Translations under genes and position numbers: made by a program
From: Bacteroidia bacterium
Lineage (GTDB): Bacteria; Bacteroidota; Bacteroidia; Bacteroidales; VadinHA17
Assembly: GCA_026391595.1 (NCBI GenBank)
Contig: JAPLDY010000071.1
Coordinates: 1-39,056 of the forward strand
Direction of reading: 5' to 3'
Length of the DNA stretch: 39,056 nt
Part shown: in pieces, positions 10,005 through 16,526 of the stretch
How positions within the stretch are numbered: position 1 is the first letter of the stretch
How the letters are laid out: each line of letters starts with the position of its first letter
Notes under the pieces: generated by a model
The model's database searches: none
Seen by the model: the letters and a program-made list of their open reading frames with translations, nothing else
Told to the model about the DNA's origin: nothing

Positions 10005-11039
10005 ATGAATATAGTTATATTTACCAAAAAATTGATTATTATTGCATTCCGTAATATTAATTCCGCCTTCACAGGTAAAGTGATCAGAACAATAAATTGT
10101 CGCACCAGATCAGGATTGCATTTATTAGCAATTGCAATGGTTGTCTTTTTTGGTTCTTGCCAAAGTAAGCCGAAGCTCCCTGCCGAATCACCGACCAGGG
10201 GGGATATAAGAATAATTTCTGATGAATCTTTTCAGCCGGTTATAGACTCAGAGATCAATACATTTATTCAGCTATATACGAATGCAAAAGTCAAAGCATC
10301 CTATAAACCTGAGGTTGATGTGATAAATGATTTCATGAATGACTCAGTGAAGGTGATCGTGACAAGCAGGAAACTCACTGAGGATCAGATACAGTATCTC
10401 AGGGACACACAGATCATTGCCAGGACAACTACTTATGCATATGATGCGCTGGCTTTAATTACAAGCAAGCAGAATAAGGACACCATTCTTAAATATAAAG
10501 CTGTCAGGGATATTTTCCTTGGGCAGGCTTCCACCTGGCATGATATAAATCCCAAATCAAAGCTCGGGGAAATTAAAGTCGTCTTCGATAACAATAAGTC
10601 AGGCAATATCAGGTATTTCAAAGAGCTCTTTGAAATTAAAACCGGATTACCATATAATTTTTATTCTGTCAACAGTAATGCTGAAGTAGTTGATTTCGTC
10701 TCGAGGAATCCTGGAGCGCTTGGCATTATCAGTGTTAACTGGATCAGCGACAAGGATGATTCTCTGAGCATGAGTTTCCTGAAAAAGATAAATGTGGTGG
10801 GAGTATCACAACAGCTTATGGATGACGGATCTTACTACAGGCCGCAGCAGGGATTCATTTACACCAAAGAATATCCCTTTACTAGGGAAGTGTACCTTAT
10901 CTCGAGAGAGACATTCAAGGGACTTGGATCGGGTTTTATACAGTGGTGCACAGGTGAACAGGGACAGAGGATTGTAAAATTGTCGGGATTGGTTCCTGCG
11001 ACTATGCCGGTAAGAATAGTGCAGTTGAAAACGGAATAA
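10005..11039 (+). CDS. PstS-like phosphate-type substrate-binding lipoprotein
   Basis: Resembles the periplasmic phosphate-binding protein PstS: RGDIRIISDESFQPVIDSEI, VTSRKLTEDQIQYL, AYDALALITSK, VRDIFLGQASTWHDINP, FDNNKSGNIRYF and a closing GFIQWCTGEQGQRIVKLSGLVPAT are typical of the family. A lipobox (VVFFGSC) puts the acylated cysteine at residue 52, too far from the ATG for a normal signal. A GTG at 10080 would give a 26-residue signal (VIRTINCRTRSGLHLLAIAM...) and is perhaps the true start. No pstC, pstA, pstB or phoU is nearby. Next to exbB-exbD-tonB its job may be envelope binding or sensing rather than ABC import. The ligand is unknown. Confidence 0.8.
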   Translation: MNIVIFTKKLIIIAFRNINSAFTGKVIRTINCRTRSGLHLLAIAMVVFFGSCQSKPKLPAESPTRGDIRIISDESFQPVIDSEINTFIQLYTNAKVKASYKPEVDVINDFMNDSVKVIVTSRKLTEDQIQYLRDTQIIARTTTYAYDALALITSKQNKDTILKYKAVRDIFLGQASTWHDINPKSKLGEIKVVFDNNKSGNIRYFKELFEIKTGLPYNFYSVNSNAEVVDFVSRNPGALGIISVNWISDKDDSLSMSFLKKINVVGVSQQLMDDGSYYRPQQGFIYTKEYPFTREVYLISRETFKGLGSGFIQWCTGEQGQRIVKLSGLVPATMPVRIVQLKTE

Positions 11040-11128
11040 GATAAAAGATAATAAACAAAAGATCAAAGATAAAGTGCAGGACGAAAAGTAAAATTTAGTA
11101 ATATTGACACCAAAATAAAAGTTTAACT

Positions 11129-13372
11129 ATGAAACGTGTATTATTCAAAAAGGGGTTAATCCTAACAGCAGCAATTGCCGGGCTTATGAGCAGCAATATT
11201 TTCGGACAGGATATTGCCTCTGCTCTCCTTCTTACTAAGAGTGAACAGTATGACAAAGCTGGTGCAATGCTTAACCAGCTGATCCAGAAGGAACCAGCCA
11301 ATAGTAAAAATTATTTTTATCTGGGAGAGAATATGCTTCTTGATTATTATTCAGATACTATATCCAATTCGCTTCCTATTGCAACTAAAGCAGCCAGAGA
11401 AATTTTCCAGAAAGGTGTCAGTGCTAATGCCGGAGATCCGCTCAATTACGTCGGTCTTGCAAAAGTAGCCAATATGCTTGGTGATAATAAGACAGCAACG
11501 GAGATGAGGACAAAGGCAAGAAGCTTGCTTCTTCCTTACAAAAACATAAAGAAGATCGTTCCTCCTGCCAAAGATTATGCATTTGCACTTGCAAAAATTG
11601 CAGAGTCGTATATAAATAATGGCGAGGTTGACACAGCGGCTGCACTTCCATTAATAAGGCAGGCTGTAATAATTGATTCAAAGAACCCCGAGATCTACCT
11701 GATCGCAGGTGATATATACATCATGGCCATTGATGGTTCAAATGCAATAAAGAATTACAACCTCGCACAATACGCTGATCCCAAGTCACCTACTGCGAAT
11801 ATGAAGATCGGAAATATATATGTAAGAGGGAAAAATCTTCAGGTTGCAATTCCGTATTTTGAGGAAGCAATCGCTCTTGATGCCAACTATGCACCGGCAT
11901 ACCGCGAACTTGGACAGCTTTACTGGATGGCCCAGAGACTTGAACAATCAAAAACAAATTTTAAAAAATATCTCGAGCTGACAGCAGGCAACATTCCTGC
12001 AAAAACGAGATACGTGAACTCTCTGTTCTATGCAGGTGATTATGAAGAGGTTATCAAGAACGTGGAGGAGATACTTGCAGTAGACGATTCAAGGGCTTAT
12101 ATGAACCGTCTGGCAGGCTACTCCTACTGCGATAAGAAAAATCCGGATTACAAAAAGGCTCTGGAATATATGGACAAACTTTTTGAAAAGGTTCCGGAGG
12201 ACAGAATTCTTCCAAAAGACCACCATTATGTTGCAAGGATCATTATGAAGAAGAACCTGGACCTGCCCAAGATGACGGAGGAGCTTGGAAATCTTGAACA
12301 GCAGCTCCAGAAAAGCAAATCGAAATATAATTCGGCAACTGCAGCTGATAAGACCAAACTTAAACCTGCACTTGACGAGCTTACTTCAAAATACGATAAT
12401 CTCAAATCAAATGTCGCAGCTTCTGAGAAAGAGCTTGACAGAGGATTCCGTGAATATGCAAAAGTAATTGAACTTAAACCTCAGGACAATGCCCTAAGGA
12501 ATGAGCTTGCTCAAAACTATTACTCATTCAAGAAGTATGATGATGCAGCAAAGACCTGGGGAAAGATAATAGATCCTGCAAAAGATGATATTCCTGCATA
12601 CATGAAGGTTGGAAGAGCATATAACAATGGGAACAACCTGAAATCCGCAGATTCAGTATTCAATATAGTTATCAGGAAGAATCCTGAGTACCTCGATGCT
12701 TATGTGTGGAGTGCCCGTACATATTCAAAGATGGATCCTGATTACAAGACAGGTGTTGCAAAACCTAAGTTTGAAAAGGTCATTTCCGTAGCCGCTAAAG
12801 ACTCTTTAAAGAACAACTCTGAGATGATGGAAGCATTTGGGTACCTTGGCTGGTACTACTCCGAGAAGGGTAATTACAGCGCTTCAAGATCATATTACAA
12901 CAGGATGATAAACCTTGATCCGAGAAACAAGGATAACAAGATAAAGGGGTATAACGGGCTTGGGCAGCTGGAATCATATAAAGTTGTTCTTGAAGACAAG
13001 ACAATTGAAGGAAAGCTTGCCATCCTTGGAAGAGCCCTTGAGGCTTATGATAAGATCCTTGCTCTTGAACCCAATAACGCTCAGGCAAAAGCCAGCAGGA
13101 GTTGGGTGCAGGAATATATTGCAAAGGTTAAGACGGGCATAAATCCGAATGAGATCAAGGGAACTGTAAAAAATGCTGCCGGCCAGCCGATAGCTTTTGC
13201 CTCGGTAAAAATCAAGGATACTGCTGCAGAAACCTTCACTAATGCCAAGGGAGAGTACAAATTCGAAATCTCGCAGTCTTCTGAAATACTGGTAATCAGC
13301 GCAAAGGGATATGCTTCAAAGGAGATACCCGTTACGAAGTCGAGGATTTATAATGTAGTACTCGAAAAATAA
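11129..13372 (+). CDS. Secreted TPR protein with C-terminal CarboxypepD_reg-like domain
   Basis: 747 aa. Residues 1-27 (MKRVLFKKGLILTAAIAGLM ... FGQD) are a signal peptide. Residues ~30-660 consist of tetratricopeptide repeats, for example AGAMLNQLIQKEPANSKNYF, AIPYFEEAIALDANYAPAYR and AYDKILALEPNNAQAKAS, interrupted by a likely coiled coil around 385-435 (LGNLEQQLQKSKSKY ... VAASEKELDRG). The last ~75 residues (NEIKGTVKNAAGQPIAFASV to YNVVLEK) form a carboxypeptidase-regulatory-like beta domain, the type also found at the N-terminus of SusC-class TonB-dependent transporters. The protein therefore probably works as a periplasmic or outer-membrane scaffold next to the TonB machinery; this is inference. 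A 189-base gap with a new promoter separates it from exbB. Confidence 0.85.
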   Translation: MKRVLFKKGLILTAAIAGLMSSNIFGQDIASALLLTKSEQYDKAGAMLNQLIQKEPANSKNYFYLGENMLLDYYSDTISNSLPIATKAAREIFQKGVSANAGDPLNYVGLAKVANMLGDNKTATEMRTKARSLLLPYKNIKKIVPPAKDYAFALAKIAESYINNGEVDTAAALPLIRQAVIIDSKNPEIYLIAGDIYIMAIDGSNAIKNYNLAQYADPKSPTANMKIGNIYVRGKNLQVAIPYFEEAIALDANYAPAYRELGQLYWMAQRLEQSKTNFKKYLELTAGNIPAKTRYVNSLFYAGDYEEVIKNVEEILAVDDSRAYMNRLAGYSYCDKKNPDYKKALEYMDKLFEKVPEDRILPKDHHYVARIIMKKNLDLPKMTEELGNLEQQLQKSKSKYNSATAADKTKLKPALDELTSKYDNLKSNVAASEKELDRGFREYAKVIELKPQDNALRNELAQNYYSFKKYDDAAKTWGKIIDPAKDDIPAYMKVGRAYNNGNNLKSADSVFNIVIRKNPEYLDAYVWSARTYSKMDPDYKTGVAKPKFEKVISVAAKDSLKNNSEMMEAFGYLGWYYSEKGNYSASRSYYNRMINLDPRNKDNKIKGYNGLGQLESYKVVLEDKTIEGKLAILGRALEAYDKILALEPNNAQAKASRSWVQEYIAKVKTGINPNEIKGTVKNAAGQPIAFASVKIKDTAAETFTNAKGEYKFEISQSSEILVISAKGYASKEIPVTKSRIYNVVLEK

Positions 13373-13561: not shown

Positions 13562-14380
13562 ATGAGTAAACAAGGAAGTTCGTTCAAAGATGCAATGTCA
13601 AACATATTTGCATTTGGTGCTATTTTAATAGCATTTGTGGTATCCAAATTATTGTTCGACAATATAATGGGTAATCCAATTCACTTCGAAGGAGGTAATA
13701 ATGAAGGACAAGCACTTCAGGGAGACTACCTGGGTATCATATACAGGGGTGGTTTCATTGTTCCAATTCTTATGACCTGCGTTCTTTCTCTTTTCGTTTT
13801 CATTATTGAAAGAGCTATTACTCTCACCAGGGCTAAAGGAAAAGGAAGGATCAATTCATTTGTTCACAAGCTTCAGGGTCTTCTCAATGAAGATAAAATT
13901 GAAGAAGCAATTGAGGCATGCGACAAGCAGAGAGGTTCACTCGCAAATGTTATGAGAGCTGGTCTGATAAGGTATCGCGACCTTCAGAAAGATAAAGAGC
14001 TTGAGAAAGACCAGAAGATCCTTTCTATCCAGAAATCATTCGAAGAAGCTACAGCTCTTGAGCTGCCGATGCTTTCAAAGAACATGGTTATTTTCTCAAC
14101 CCTTGCATCAATATCAGTGCTTATCGGTCTTATCGGAACAGTTCTTGGTATGATCCGTGCATTCGGTGCTCTTGCACAATCAGGCGCTCCTGACGCTCTT
14201 GCTCTTGCAGAAGGTATTTCAGAAGCTCTTGTTAATACAGCATTCGGTATAACTGGATCTACACTTTCAATTATAGCATTCAACTTTTTTTCATCAATGA
14301 TTGACTCATACACATTTAAGATTGATGAATCAGGGTTCAGCCTGACACAGAGTTTTGCTGCGTCGCTGAAGAAAGAATAA
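13562..14380 (+). CDS. exbB: ExbB/TolQ-family proton channel subunit
   Basis: Inner-membrane MotA/TolQ/ExbB channel protein that, with ExbD, couples proton flow to TonB movement. 272 aa with four hydrophobic segments: about 15-33, 61-83, 174-197 and 220-246. The last two carry the family core, IGLIGTVLGMIRAFGAL and ISEALVNTAFGITGST, whose polar Thr residues line the proton path. The first segment, and the linker GNPIHFEGGNNEGQ after it, come ahead of the standard three-helix topology of E. coli ExbB. The cytoplasmic loop (~90-170) is long and charged. It begins the exbB-exbD-exbD-tonB unit behind a good promoter. TolQ is the alternative name, but a TonB gene in the same operon favours ExbB. 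Confidence 0.92.
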   Translation: MSKQGSSFKDAMSNIFAFGAILIAFVVSKLLFDNIMGNPIHFEGGNNEGQALQGDYLGIIYRGGFIVPILMTCVLSLFVFIIERAITLTRAKGKGRINSFVHKLQGLLNEDKIEEAIEACDKQRGSLANVMRAGLIRYRDLQKDKELEKDQKILSIQKSFEEATALELPMLSKNMVIFSTLASISVLIGLIGTVLGMIRAFGALAQSGAPDALALAEGISEALVNTAFGITGSTLSIIAFNFFSSMIDSYTFKIDESGFSLTQSFAASLKKE

Positions 14381-14424: not shown

Positions 14425-15063
14425 ATGCCAAAGATTAAATTACCAACAAAGTCGCCAAGAATCGACATGACGCCGATGGTCGACACATTTTGCGTGATCC
14501 TGACATTCCTGATGCTGACCGCAACAATGAGACAGACCGAACCGGCCAATGTTGATACGCCTTTCTCAATATCAGAAAAACCTACTCCTGATTTTAATAC
14601 CATTACTTTTCTTGTTTCTGCTGACGAAAAGGTTTTCATTAATATGGATAATGGACCTGACACAGCATGGAAATTCAGACCCAAAATCCTTACTGAGATG
14701 GGGAAAAGGTACGGTATCGAGTTTACTGAAGCAGAATTGAGGGAATTTGAGAAATATCCGTCATCCATGGGTGTTCCCATTATGAAGATGAAGGAGTTTC
14801 TTGCAGGAAAGAATATTAAGGACAGAAATCCTTTCCAGGTTGGCATTCCAACGGATTCCCTTGATAATCAACTTGCAATGTGGATACTCTGCGCACGTCA
14901 GGTAAATCCGAACATAAATGCCTGTATAAAAGGTGATGCTAACGCCCCTTTCCCGGCAGTTAAGAAAGTACTGGATAATCTTCAGGATAAGAAAGTCAAC
15001 AAGTTTATGCTGATTACGAGCCTTGAAGCTATTAAGATTAACATAGACGAAATACAACAGTGA
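14425..15063 (+). CDS. exbD: ExbD-family biopolymer transport protein (first copy)
   Basis: 212 aa, one transmembrane segment near residues 18-36. The signature PRIDMTPMVDTFCVILTFLM includes D20, the aspartate protonated during ExbB/ExbD function. The periplasmic part is longer than that of E. coli ExbD (141 aa): it has an insert around 60-140 (VSADEKVFINMDNGPD ... IKDRNPFQVGIPTDS) before the usual closing fold PNINACIKGDANAPFPAVKKVLDNLQD. It is encoded 44 bases after exbB and ends 1 base before the second exbD, so the two are probably translationally coupled. Its sequence differs clearly from the second copy outside the transmembrane core. Confidence 0.92.
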   Translation: MPKIKLPTKSPRIDMTPMVDTFCVILTFLMLTATMRQTEPANVDTPFSISEKPTPDFNTITFLVSADEKVFINMDNGPDTAWKFRPKILTEMGKRYGIEFTEAELREFEKYPSSMGVPIMKMKEFLAGKNIKDRNPFQVGIPTDSLDNQLAMWILCARQVNPNINACIKGDANAPFPAVKKVLDNLQDKKVNKFMLITSLEAIKINIDEIQQ

Positions 15064-15064
15064 T

Positions 15065-15730
15065 ATGGCAGAGATAATTCAAGAGGAAAAGGCAAAAGGC
15101 GGGAAGAAGAAAGCTAAGAAACACGCACCGCATATCGATATGACACCGATGGTTGACCTTATGTGTCTGCTGATCACATTCTTTATGCTGACCACTGCTT
15201 TCGCTAAAGCCAAGGTTATGGAGATTGTTCTTCCTGAGAAGATCGATGATCCGAATCAACGGCAGCCTGCGGTCGCAAAAAGTCGTACTGTAAATATCAT
15301 CCTGGGTCCTGATGACAGAATTTTCTGGTATCCGGGCTCAGTTGAGCCAGCGGAATATAATAGTAACATCTTTCCTCCTCTAGCAGAGCTTGACTACAGC
15401 GACAAGGGCATTCGCCAGTTGTTGCTTGACAAAAACAGGACTCTTGCAAGGAAGATTGCCGATTTAAATGATAAGGTGATCAAAGGAGAGCTGGTTCTTA
15501 CGCAGGATTCTTTAGCAGGTTCGATCAGAAAACTGAAGACCGATGATGATACTGGTCCTATTGTGCTTATAAAAGCTTATAAAAAAGCTAGTTACGGTAA
15601 CTTTGTGGATATCATGGATGAAATGAATATCTGCGGAATAGCCCGTTATAATTTTGTTGACATAGCATGGTATGAAGATAAAATGGTGGAATTAGCCGTT
15701 GGCAATGCGCCTGCAACTTCGACCAATTAA
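15065..15730 (+). CDS. exbD: ExbD-family biopolymer transport protein (second copy)
   Basis: 221 aa with a basic N-terminus rich in lysine (KAKGGKKKAKKHAPH) and one transmembrane segment carrying the core HIDMTPMVDLMCLLITFFML; D31 is the functional aspartate. The periplasmic domain is long and includes a charged helical stretch (~115-160, IRQLLLDKNRTLARKIADLN) before the typical KAYKKASYGNFVDIMDEMNI. It starts 1 base after the stop of the first exbD. Two unlike ExbD proteins behind one ExbB suggest a mixed ExbD dimer in the pore, or two alternative complexes; the sequence alone cannot decide. Confidence 0.92.
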   Translation: MAEIIQEEKAKGGKKKAKKHAPHIDMTPMVDLMCLLITFFMLTTAFAKAKVMEIVLPEKIDDPNQRQPAVAKSRTVNIILGPDDRIFWYPGSVEPAEYNSNIFPPLAELDYSDKGIRQLLLDKNRTLARKIADLNDKVIKGELVLTQDSLAGSIRKLKTDDDTGPIVLIKAYKKASYGNFVDIMDEMNICGIARYNFVDIAWYEDKMVELAVGNAPATSTN

Positions 15731-15749: not shown

Positions 15750-16526
15750 ATGGCTAGTAAAGAAAAAGCTCCAACCTTTAACGACATTGTTTTCGAAATA
15801 AGGAACAAGGAGTACGGTGCATACAGTCTAAGAAAAAAATACAACCGCAATGTCCTGATTGGTATGCTTGTGGGAATTCTGCTTTTGGGTACTGCTGTAA
15901 TTACTCCACATCTCTATGCAAAAGCTATGGAGAGCAAGAAGAAACGTGAGGAGAGACAGCTTGAAATGGTGATGGAAAATCTGGAAACTCCTGCCGAACA
16001 GTTGGCTCCTCCCCCTCCACCTCCACCTCCGCCAGCTGAGACAGTTCAACAGAACCGATATGTAGCTCCGGTAGTCGTTGACTCAGTAAAACCTGAAGAC
16101 ATGGTTCAGCTTATGACAGCTGACCAGGCATCAACTGATGTAGTAAACGAAGAGTATGTCGAAGCAGTAGAGCAAGTTAAAGAAGAAGTTCAGGAGGTAG
16201 AAGCTGAACCCGAACCATTCGTGGTTGTTGAGGAGATGCCGATGTTCCCGGGCGGAGATGCTGCTCTTCTTACTTATATCGGTGAGCATACCAACTACCC
16301 TGAAGTTGCCAAGGAAAATAACATCCAGGGGAGGGTAATTGTAAGGTTCTGTGTGACATCCAAGGGTACTGTCAGTCAGATAAGCGTATTAAAAGGCGTT
16401 GATCCTGAACTTGATAAGGAAGCAATGAGAGTTGTTTCCACACTTCCTACATTTAAGCCTGGTAAACAGGGCGGCAAGCCGGTTCCTGTCTGGTACATGG
16501 TACCTATTACCTTCACGCTTAAGTAA
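15750..16526 (+). CDS. tonB: TonB energy transducer
   Basis: 258 aa. The cytoplasmic N-terminus FNDIVFEIRNKEYGAYSLRK is of the form usual in Bacteroidota TonB proteins, followed by a transmembrane helix near 34-55. A run of nine prolines (87-95) and an acidic, Val/Glu-rich stretch (~140-172) span the periplasm. The C-terminal TonB domain (~173-258) has MPMFPGGDAALLTYIGEHTN, YPEVAKENNIQGRVIVRF and LPTFKPGKQGGKPVPVWYMV, the part that binds the TonB box of outer-membrane transporters. It is the last gene of the operon and is followed by a strong terminator. No TonB-dependent transporter is in the window, so its clients are encoded elsewhere. Confidence 0.95.
   Translation: MASKEKAPTFNDIVFEIRNKEYGAYSLRKKYNRNVLIGMLVGILLLGTAVITPHLYAKAMESKKKREERQLEMVMENLETPAEQLAPPPPPPPPPAETVQQNRYVAPVVVDSVKPEDMVQLMTADQASTDVVNEEYVEAVEQVKEEVQEVEAEPEPFVVVEEMPMFPGGDAALLTYIGEHTNYPEVAKENNIQGRVIVRFCVTSKGTVSQISVLKGVDPELDKEAMRVVSTLPTFKPGKQGGKPVPVWYMVPITFTLK

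Follow-up and report, generated by a model that had tools for sequence, protein, structure and literature searches.

Two unlike ExbD proteins behind one ExbB in Bacteroidota: in-register co-evolution of their transmembrane helices points to a shared motor pore

Background

When two unlike ExbD genes follow a single ExbB gene, do their products share one motor pore, or does each pair with itself? The question is raised by the window, by which we mean the whole stretch of 39,056 nucleotides analysed here (contig JAPLDY010000071.1 of a Bacteroidia bacterium). ExbD of Escherichia coli is about 141 amino acids long, and to our knowledge the solved motors related to that of E. coli use identical axle subunits, as it does itself. 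A preliminary description of the window had pointed out two enlarged ExbD proteins and had taken a heterodimer as a natural reading, in which the two inserts might touch the PstS-like or TPR protein.

The answer matters in several ways. Models of how the E. coli motor grips TonB, as described in PMC12215075 and PMC10907165, lean on the two-fold axis of identical ExbDs. If the pore subunits were unlike, each proton site could be disabled separately, so that their alternating use could be tested directly, and a widespread motor of that kind would also bear on the heterodimer question for paired TolR-like proteins as posed for AglQ/AglS (PMC9389320). The organisms bearing the pair include the gut genera Bacteroides, Parabacteroides and Phocaeicola, which are described as reliant on TonB-driven glycan uptake (PMC11658791).

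Results and discussion

Genes of the window

Genes for ExbB, ExbD and TonB are found together in the window as judged by Pfam, in the order ExbB-D1-D2-TonB and all on the + strand, with a single ExbB ahead of both ExbD genes as had been described. Both ExbD reading frames (212 and 221 amino acids) were confirmed, with one base (15064) between the D1 stop and the D2 start, and so were the two channel aspartates, each within the matching motif IDMTPMVD. The features are the following.

10005..11039, + strand: PstS-like periplasmic binding protein (PF12849), flanking the motor genes
11129..13372, + strand: TPR protein with a C-terminal CarboxypepD_reg-like domain (open reading frame and Pfam)
13562..14380, + strand: ExbB, MotA/TolQ/ExbB family, 272 aa (PF01618), hydrophobic segments at residues 15-33, 64-82, 176-194 and 222-240
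14425..15063, + strand: ExbD-a (D1), 212 aa (PF02472), in a clade of its own (SH-aLRT 95)
14470..14520, + strand: predicted transmembrane helix of D1, residues 16-32 (AlphaFold2 model); residues 17, 19, 22, 23, 30 and 31 coupled to D2
14482..14484, + strand: channel Asp20 of D1, Asp in 379 of 379 aligned D1
14647..14868, + strand: insert region of D1, residues 75-148, four predicted helices between the strand 70-74 and the helix 149-160 (AlphaFold2 model; limits are our reading of the model)
15065..15730, + strand: ExbD-b (D2), 221 aa (PF02472), in a clade of its own (SH-aLRT 78)
15143..15202, + strand: predicted transmembrane helix of D2, residues 27-46 (AlphaFold2 model); residues 26, 33, 34 and 44 coupled to D1, residue 26 lying just N-terminal of the modelled helix
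15155..15157, + strand: channel Asp31 of D2, Asp in 379 of 379 aligned D2
15335..15502, + strand: insert region of D2, residues 91-146, predicted to form a short helix, then a short strand and two longer helices (AlphaFold2 model; limits are our reading of the model)
15750..16526, + strand: TonB, 258 aa (PF03544), hydrophobic segment at residues 35-53
16056..16088, + strand: TonB linker motif RYVAPVVVDSV, residues 103-113, candidate ExbD-binding strand (Pro107 in 364 of 369; direct coupling and co-substitution)

A further ExbD match in the genome (E 0.001) is a reading frame of 131 amino acids adjoining one of 230 amino acids, which looks ExbB-like by eye.

Both proteins exceed the PF02472 (ExbD) cut-off of 25.4 bits, with 64.5 bits for D1 and 78.7 bits for D2, and both have the ExbD/TolR layout of one N-terminal hydrophobic segment and a conserved Asp. 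Scores stay far below the curated NCBIfam equivalog cut-offs of TIGR02803, TIGR02801 and TIGR02804 (best 42.6 bits against 127.3). That the two are truly unlike was borne out: the BLASTP alignment between them is confined to the N-terminal part (30% identity over 69 columns), and the profile-profile match has a probability of 99.6 with 18% identity over 172 columns. We also built a tree of 128 ExbDs by a quick method on 155 columns, with 34 representatives each of D1 and D2. It places D1 on one side of a branch and D2 on one side of another, the support of the latter not being starred. Since D1 and D2 fall into separate clades, the split between them looks old.

AlphaFold2 models were built from 66 (D1) and 64 (D2) sequences and reached a pLDDT of 82.0 and 83.2, respectively, with a pTM of 0.65 each. 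The D1 model has a helix at 16-32, strands at 59-64 and 70-74, helices at 84-96, 102-110, 119-127, 131-137 and 149-160, and then a strand at 165-170, a helix at 176-188, a strand at 194-197 and a helix at 207-210. The D2 model has a helix at 27-46, strands at 75-80 and 86-90, a helix at 95-98, a strand at 107-109, helices at 116-123, 125-140 and 147-159, followed by a strand at 166-171, a helix at 177-190, a strand at 195-198 and a helix at 202-213. In both models, several additional helices thus follow the second strand and precede the strand at 165-171, with a different arrangement in each, which agrees with the differing periplasmic inserts first described; in our reading of the models, the extra stretch would be an insert relative to E. 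coli ExbD. A Foldseek search against the PDB gave the top probabilities to ExbD/TolR chains (8p9r 0.96 for D1; 8pek 0.98 and 5by4 0.96 for D2), that is, to the periplasmic domains of E. coli ExbD and TolR, with weak E-values, none below 0.001. Ranked by E-value, the first two D2 matches are unrelated chains of the trypanosome mitoribosome, with probabilities of 0.51 and 0.44.

Distribution of the pair

The paired D1-D2 arrangement recurs as a stable unit in much of the Bacteroidota and is no special feature of this genome. Searching with the D1 protein gave matches in 187 of 392 genomes of the phylum at E 1e-6. Among the D1 matches listed, those weaker than about E 1e-13 mostly cover the N-terminal 75-110 residues only, and the adjacent pair was present in all ten weak-match loci that were fetched (L193-L202). 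The genome searches for D1 and D2 used set thresholds, with no more than 7 or 8 candidates scored in any genome, so that a missing match in them does not mean a missing pair.

From 411 strong D1 reading frames (loci L033-L462), 382 distinct D1 genes were obtained, and D2 lies directly behind D1 in 379 of these, which puts the pairing beyond chance. Of the remaining three, L094 and L394 are cut off where their contigs end, and L171 is an additional orphan copy, whose genome (G386) also has the operon, with another D1 on contig C60 and D2 beside it. The orphan itself (L171:1595-2206) adjoins a reading frame that resembles, by eye, a protein of the NAD(P)H dehydrogenase (quinone) type. The channel site holds Asp in every one of the 379 D1 and the 379 D2 sequences; ExbB is adjacent to 378 of the pairs and TonB to 369. 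In the first batch (n=246 pairs) the median gap was 19 bases, and the median lengths were 205 aa for D1 and 209 aa for D2. The 80 loci kept from a profile scan of named contigs include Bacteroides, Parabacteroides, Phocaeicola, Hymenobacter, Pontibacter, Flavobacterium and a Chitinophaga MAG. Open frames of 439 aa (G051) and 451 aa (G035) were considered as natural D1-D2 fusions and rejected, as the loci show separate reading frames.

PstS and TPR genes are attached to the motor in 51 of the 52 loci with enough flank (L063-L142; the exception is L101), and PstS is present in about 70 loci (72 seeds). Among the 52, ExbB-D1-D2-TonB-PstS-TPR is the commonest order (29), followed by a version of it that has a second TonB (12). 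This second, different TonB sits between the first TonB and PstS, mostly in Hymenobacter and Pontibacter (L074, L076, L079, L081-L083, L091, L103, L115, L119, L121, L126). PstS and TPR stand ahead of the motor in five of the 52 loci and in the window, where they occupy 10005-13372. They are thus near-constant companions of the motor in two main gene orders, the PstS-like protein being of a phosphate-binding kind. For the contact of the inserts with these two proteins that was first suggested, the loci show linkage of the genes.

Direct coupling between the two helices

ExbB, D1, D2 and TonB are inherited together, and the D1 and D2 helices co-evolve in register. Mean-field direct coupling analysis (DCA) was carried out on D1, D2, ExbB and TonB jointly, using 367 of the 379 loci (the other 12 had no usable ExbB or TonB), 863 columns and an effective number of 227. 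Since D1 and D2 are separate genes, coupling between them is not confusable with contacts inside one chain. Six of the ten top inter-protein pairs among the four proteins join D1 to D2, and four of these six join the transmembrane helices: P17-M26, C23-M33, F22-M33 and V19-M26, at ranks 2, 3, 6 and 10 among all inter-protein pairs. Aligned on D20=D31 they become (17,15'), (23,22'), (22,22') and (19,15'), the pattern expected of two parallel helices in register. An earlier DCA with 240 loci ranked P53-K50 first and had C23-M33, P17-M26 and V19-M26 within its top 60. Pairwise residue tables for D1 22 and 23 against D2 33 and 34 combine A-F with G/A-F, T-V with N-M and F-S/A/T with M-C; these suggest reciprocal size swaps, the four-residue combinations being put together from two-way tables.

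We defined a register band as the 187 cells at most 4 residues from the register, which is 0.54% of all cells. In a DCA of D1 and D2 only, this band holds 9 of the top 20 and 15 of the top 50 out of 34,600 pairs. Eight full shuffles of the pairing left none of the top 20 and none of the top 50 in the band, and eight shuffles within 13 deep clades left none of the top 20 and a mean of 0.9 of the top 50. When D2 was shuffled only inside 38 or 94 tight clades the pattern stayed (9.6 and 10.5 of the top 20), which means that the signal lies in changes between clades and not in hundreds of independent events.

Counted as DCA cells above 3, the block of D1 by D2 helix has 32 of 529, with 11 of them above 5. 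The TonB helix, as a negative control, has 6 of 529 with D1, none above 5 and equal to the D1-TonB background, and 0 of 529 with D2. ExbB 167-202 has 15 of 828 with the D1 helix and 12 of 828 with the D2 helix; ExbB 212-245 has 12 of 782 and 7 of 782, respectively, the latter not above background; ExbB 14-35 has 2 of 506 and 3 of 506. The positive control, ExbB 14-35 by the TonB helix, is seen with 16 of 506. Apart from D2 with ExbB 212-245, this pattern resembles the solved Ton motor as described in PMC12215075, in which TonB meets TM1 of ExbB and ExbD is in the pore. For a swap between the strand following the transmembrane helix and the C-terminal strand of the periplasmic part, the share of cells above 3 was 0.046 within D1 and 0.020 within D2, and 0.021 and 0.036 between the two, with 0.012 for all D1-D2 cells.

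Tree-based co-substitution

Parsimony was used to assign substitutions to the branches of a tree built from ExbB plus TonB, and changes sharing a branch were counted. The register band (94 variable cells) has 202 coincidences against 73.6 expected, about 2.7 times, and 14 of the 94 cells (14.9%) score above 3. Helix cells outside the band are also raised (171.4 against 100.5 expected; 2 of 158, 1.3%, above 3). The remaining D1-D2 cells have 296,892 coincidences against 306,356 expected (0.97), with 0.18% of 30,528 above 3. When the D1 helix was scanned along D2, the share above 3 peaked at the true register (start 25, among 164 positions with enough cells) and exceeded 3.0% at no position more than 12 residues away, while the plain ratio had its maximum one residue off (2.92 at start 24 against 2.76 at 25). 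Across six subtrees the band ratio ranged from 1.4 to 2.7 against a background of 0.90 to 0.98, two of the subtrees having just 2 and 3 cells.

By blocks, the co-substitution ratio is 2.21 for the D1 and D2 helices. ExbB 167-202 gives 1.49 with D1 and 1.57 with D2, ExbB 212-245 gives 1.29 and 1.35, and ExbB 14-35 gives 1.05 and 1.11. The TonB helix, as negative control, shows no excess (1.01 with the D1 helix, 1.04 with the D2 helix). The positive control of ExbB 14-35 with the TonB helix fails in this test (0.97). The highest single score in the helix blocks belongs to D1 V19-ExbB G189 (5.9), and the best D1-D2 pairs reach 5.4.

Could such coupling be a statistical artefact, arising from shared ancestry or because D1 and D2 have adapted in parallel to a common ExbB pore? 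The co-inheritance of all the genes, the co-change of both helices with ExbB 167-202 and 212-245 and the persistence of the pattern under tight-clade shuffling would fit this. Ancestry, however, would not single out an in-register band, highest at one register of 164, and the D1-D2 block exceeds the D1-ExbB blocks with the TonB helix near 1. We therefore hold an artefact to be very improbable.

A second possibility is that two separate homodimeric motors, D1-D1 and D2-D2, share ExbB and do different jobs. The channel Asp is kept in both ExbDs, D2-type genes exist on their own (see below), and the needs for exbD1 and exbD2 are reported to differ in Xanthomonas (PMC3551730); uptake also rose in Sphingobium when tonB1-exbB1-exbD1 was supplied in additional copies that lacked exbD2, with exbD2 itself still on the chromosome (PMC8599685). 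Yet separate homodimers predict no direct coupling between the D1 and D2 helices, which is among the strongest inter-protein couplings even with ExbB in the model, and co-change between the two helices exceeds that of either with ExbB 167-202, although one D1-ExbB pair is the highest of all. Separate homodimers thus appear improbable to us, if less so than an artefact.

The reading we prefer, to which we give a probability of roughly three in four, is that of a widespread Bacteroidota Ton motor in which an ExbB pore would hold one D1 and one D2, and the two would grip a linker strand of TonB with D2 as the main partner. By analogy with E. coli the ExbB ring would have five subunits, and one D1 and one D2 helix would lie in its pore, each bringing a proton-carrying Asp, so that the axle would be a heterodimer. 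The heterodimer first proposed is in this respect favoured by statistics on sequences, through DCA, co-substitution and the register scan with their controls; a strict pairing of D1 and D2 is not, as the solo D2-type genes speak against it.

The TonB linker motif

The strongest inter-protein DCA pair overall is D2 S73-TonB D111. TonB 98-116 has 38 of 2394 DCA cells above 3 with the periplasmic part of D2 and 21 of 3116 with that of D1 (maxima 11.2 against 4.7). The co-substitution counts for the same stretch are 12 of 2356 with D2 and 8 of 3040 with D1, and the rest of the periplasmic part of TonB has about 0.1% with either. The preference of the motif for D2 is clear in DCA and modest in co-substitution. 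In E. coli one TonB D-box strand is described as held between two identical ExbDs (PMC10907165), and we propose that the linker motif may be the D-box counterpart, with D2 as its main partner. In the periplasm D1 and D2 might then jointly grip this conserved strand, a step we put forward more tentatively than the shared pore. Such a grip would hold TonB in one orientation, whereas the symmetric E. coli dimer allows either (PMC12215075).

Solo D2-type genes and another two-ExbD layout

A search with the D2 profile found further D2-type genes, with a second locus in 18 of 18 genomes queried; as these genomes were picked for their extra D2 hits, no frequency is derivable from the count. In the 17 second loci examined, neither D1 nor ExbB lies within about 1.5 kb of the gene; at one of them (L470) TonB follows directly. 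Such solo genes lie at L473, L474 and L495-L506, in Bacteroidota of several families. At L470:1501-2870 the solo ExbD keeps the Asp, the TonB gene follows directly and no ExbB or D1 lies upstream; this may be a D2-TonB cassette working with a borrowed motor. Ser stands at the channel Asp site of D2-type paralogues (VDLTAMVSVSFLLI) in three genomes, all of one genus: one copy at L469 (G260 C13), two at L472 (G303 C14) and four in tandem at L471/L476/L480 (G280 C18). No ExbB, D1 or TonB was found within about 1.5 kb of these Ser-type loci. The solo and Ser-bearing copies show that D2 can be encoded alone and that some copies are unable to carry a proton by that residue.

These genes bring in a third possibility, compatible with the heterodimer axle, in which D1 would be the constant and D2 the variable subunit, swapped with solo D2-type paralogues, some of them without the channel Asp, and the motor tuned in this way. 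The second loci in the preselected genomes, the lack of D1 near all 17 of them, the TonB behind L470, the Ser at L469, L471 and L472 and the single orphan D1 among 382 are in line with it. Against it, the preselection deprives the frequency of meaning, and there is no sign of solo copies entering the same motor, and self-pairing or inactivity is possible for some of them. An exchangeable axle is in our view unlikely.

We also offer a wider picture as a speculation, doubtful as it stands: outer-membrane uptake in much of the Bacteroidota might run on a heterodimer axle with two non-equivalent proton sites and a single polar TonB groove with D2 as partner, and the D2 slot might be exchangeable, taken in some genomes by solo paralogues, among them copies without the proton-carrying Asp that would throttle or gate the motor.

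In 14 order-level genomes without a D1 match, ExbB is followed by an ExbD of 190-214 aa and then by one of 153-160 aa, both with low scores against the D1 and D2 profiles (L233-L239, L241-L243, L245-L248; for example L243:1267-3551). Here too a single ExbB precedes two unlike ExbDs, which are only distant relatives of D1 and D2. At a fifteenth locus (L249) the two ExbDs measure 131 and 130 aa. Both of the 14-genome loci inspected (n=2) have a small reading frame between ExbB and the first ExbD, which in one of them gave no match in a Pfam search.

Comparison with known systems

The gene pair itself is ordinary for the phylum and already in print: tandem exbD genes are reported for Riemerella anatipestifer, Flavobacterium psychrophilum, Xanthomonas and Sphingobium (PMC4446302, PMC4229322, PMC3551730, PMC8599685). 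As described in PMC4446302, exbB2-exbD21-exbD22-tonB2 of R. anatipestifer is like the window in its order exbB-exbD-exbD-tonB, its enlarged ExbDs (21.1 and 20.4 kDa) and its PstS-like neighbour, which however is downstream there and upstream in the window. From gene order and size, the R. anatipestifer pair is probably orthologous to D1 and D2. As disruption of tonB2 is reported to reduce hemin uptake strongly (PMC4446302), the motor of the window may by analogy drive TonB-dependent outer-membrane uptake.

Xanthomonas campestris and Sphingobium SYK-6, both Proteobacteria, have tonB-exbB-exbD1-exbD2 with tandem exbD genes and one exbB (PMC3551730, PMC8599685), a likeness by description. In SYK-6, exbB1, exbD1 and exbD2 are reported to have resisted disruption (PMC8599685). 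On loss of either exbD without effect, which the preliminary description took as counting against its reading, the published answers conflict: the second exbD of Xanthomonas and F. psychrophilum is given as dispensable for iron uptake (PMC3551730), whereas an exbD2 mutant of F. psychrophilum is described as growing poorly under iron restriction (PMC9331221). An ExbD heterodimer in Bacteroidota was not met with in the literature searched, whose scope left out most subscription journals and all preprints. As far as that literature goes, the evidence that D1 and D2 may share one pore is new; it is fairly strong and statistical in kind.

The layout of one TolQ-like and two unlike TolR-like proteins is shared with the AglR-AglQ-AglS motor of Myxococcus, where the two TolR/ExbD proteins have 162 and 194 aa and an Asp is predicted in both (PMC3169522, PMC9389320). 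The likeness is one of layout only. The Agl motor drives gliding, and whether AglQ and AglS form hetero- or homodimers is stated as open in PMC9389320. Another known system has one motor protein, two unlike TolR-like proteins and a TPR gene nearby and is modelled as one complex; its transducer is a vWA protein and not TonB, and it occurs in other phyla.

The closest mechanical model is the E. coli Ton motor, ExbB5-ExbD2-TonB, with five ExbB to two ExbD, TonB on TM1 of ExbB and a linker strand gripped by the ExbD pair (PMC12215075, PMC10907165); these features would be shared by the motor of the window. E. coli differs in having two identical ExbDs and a D-box that can be bound in either direction (PMC12215075). 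Where one ExbD gene supplies both pore helices of an E. coli-type homodimeric axle, the window has two unlike ExbDs which, on statistical grounds, co-evolve.
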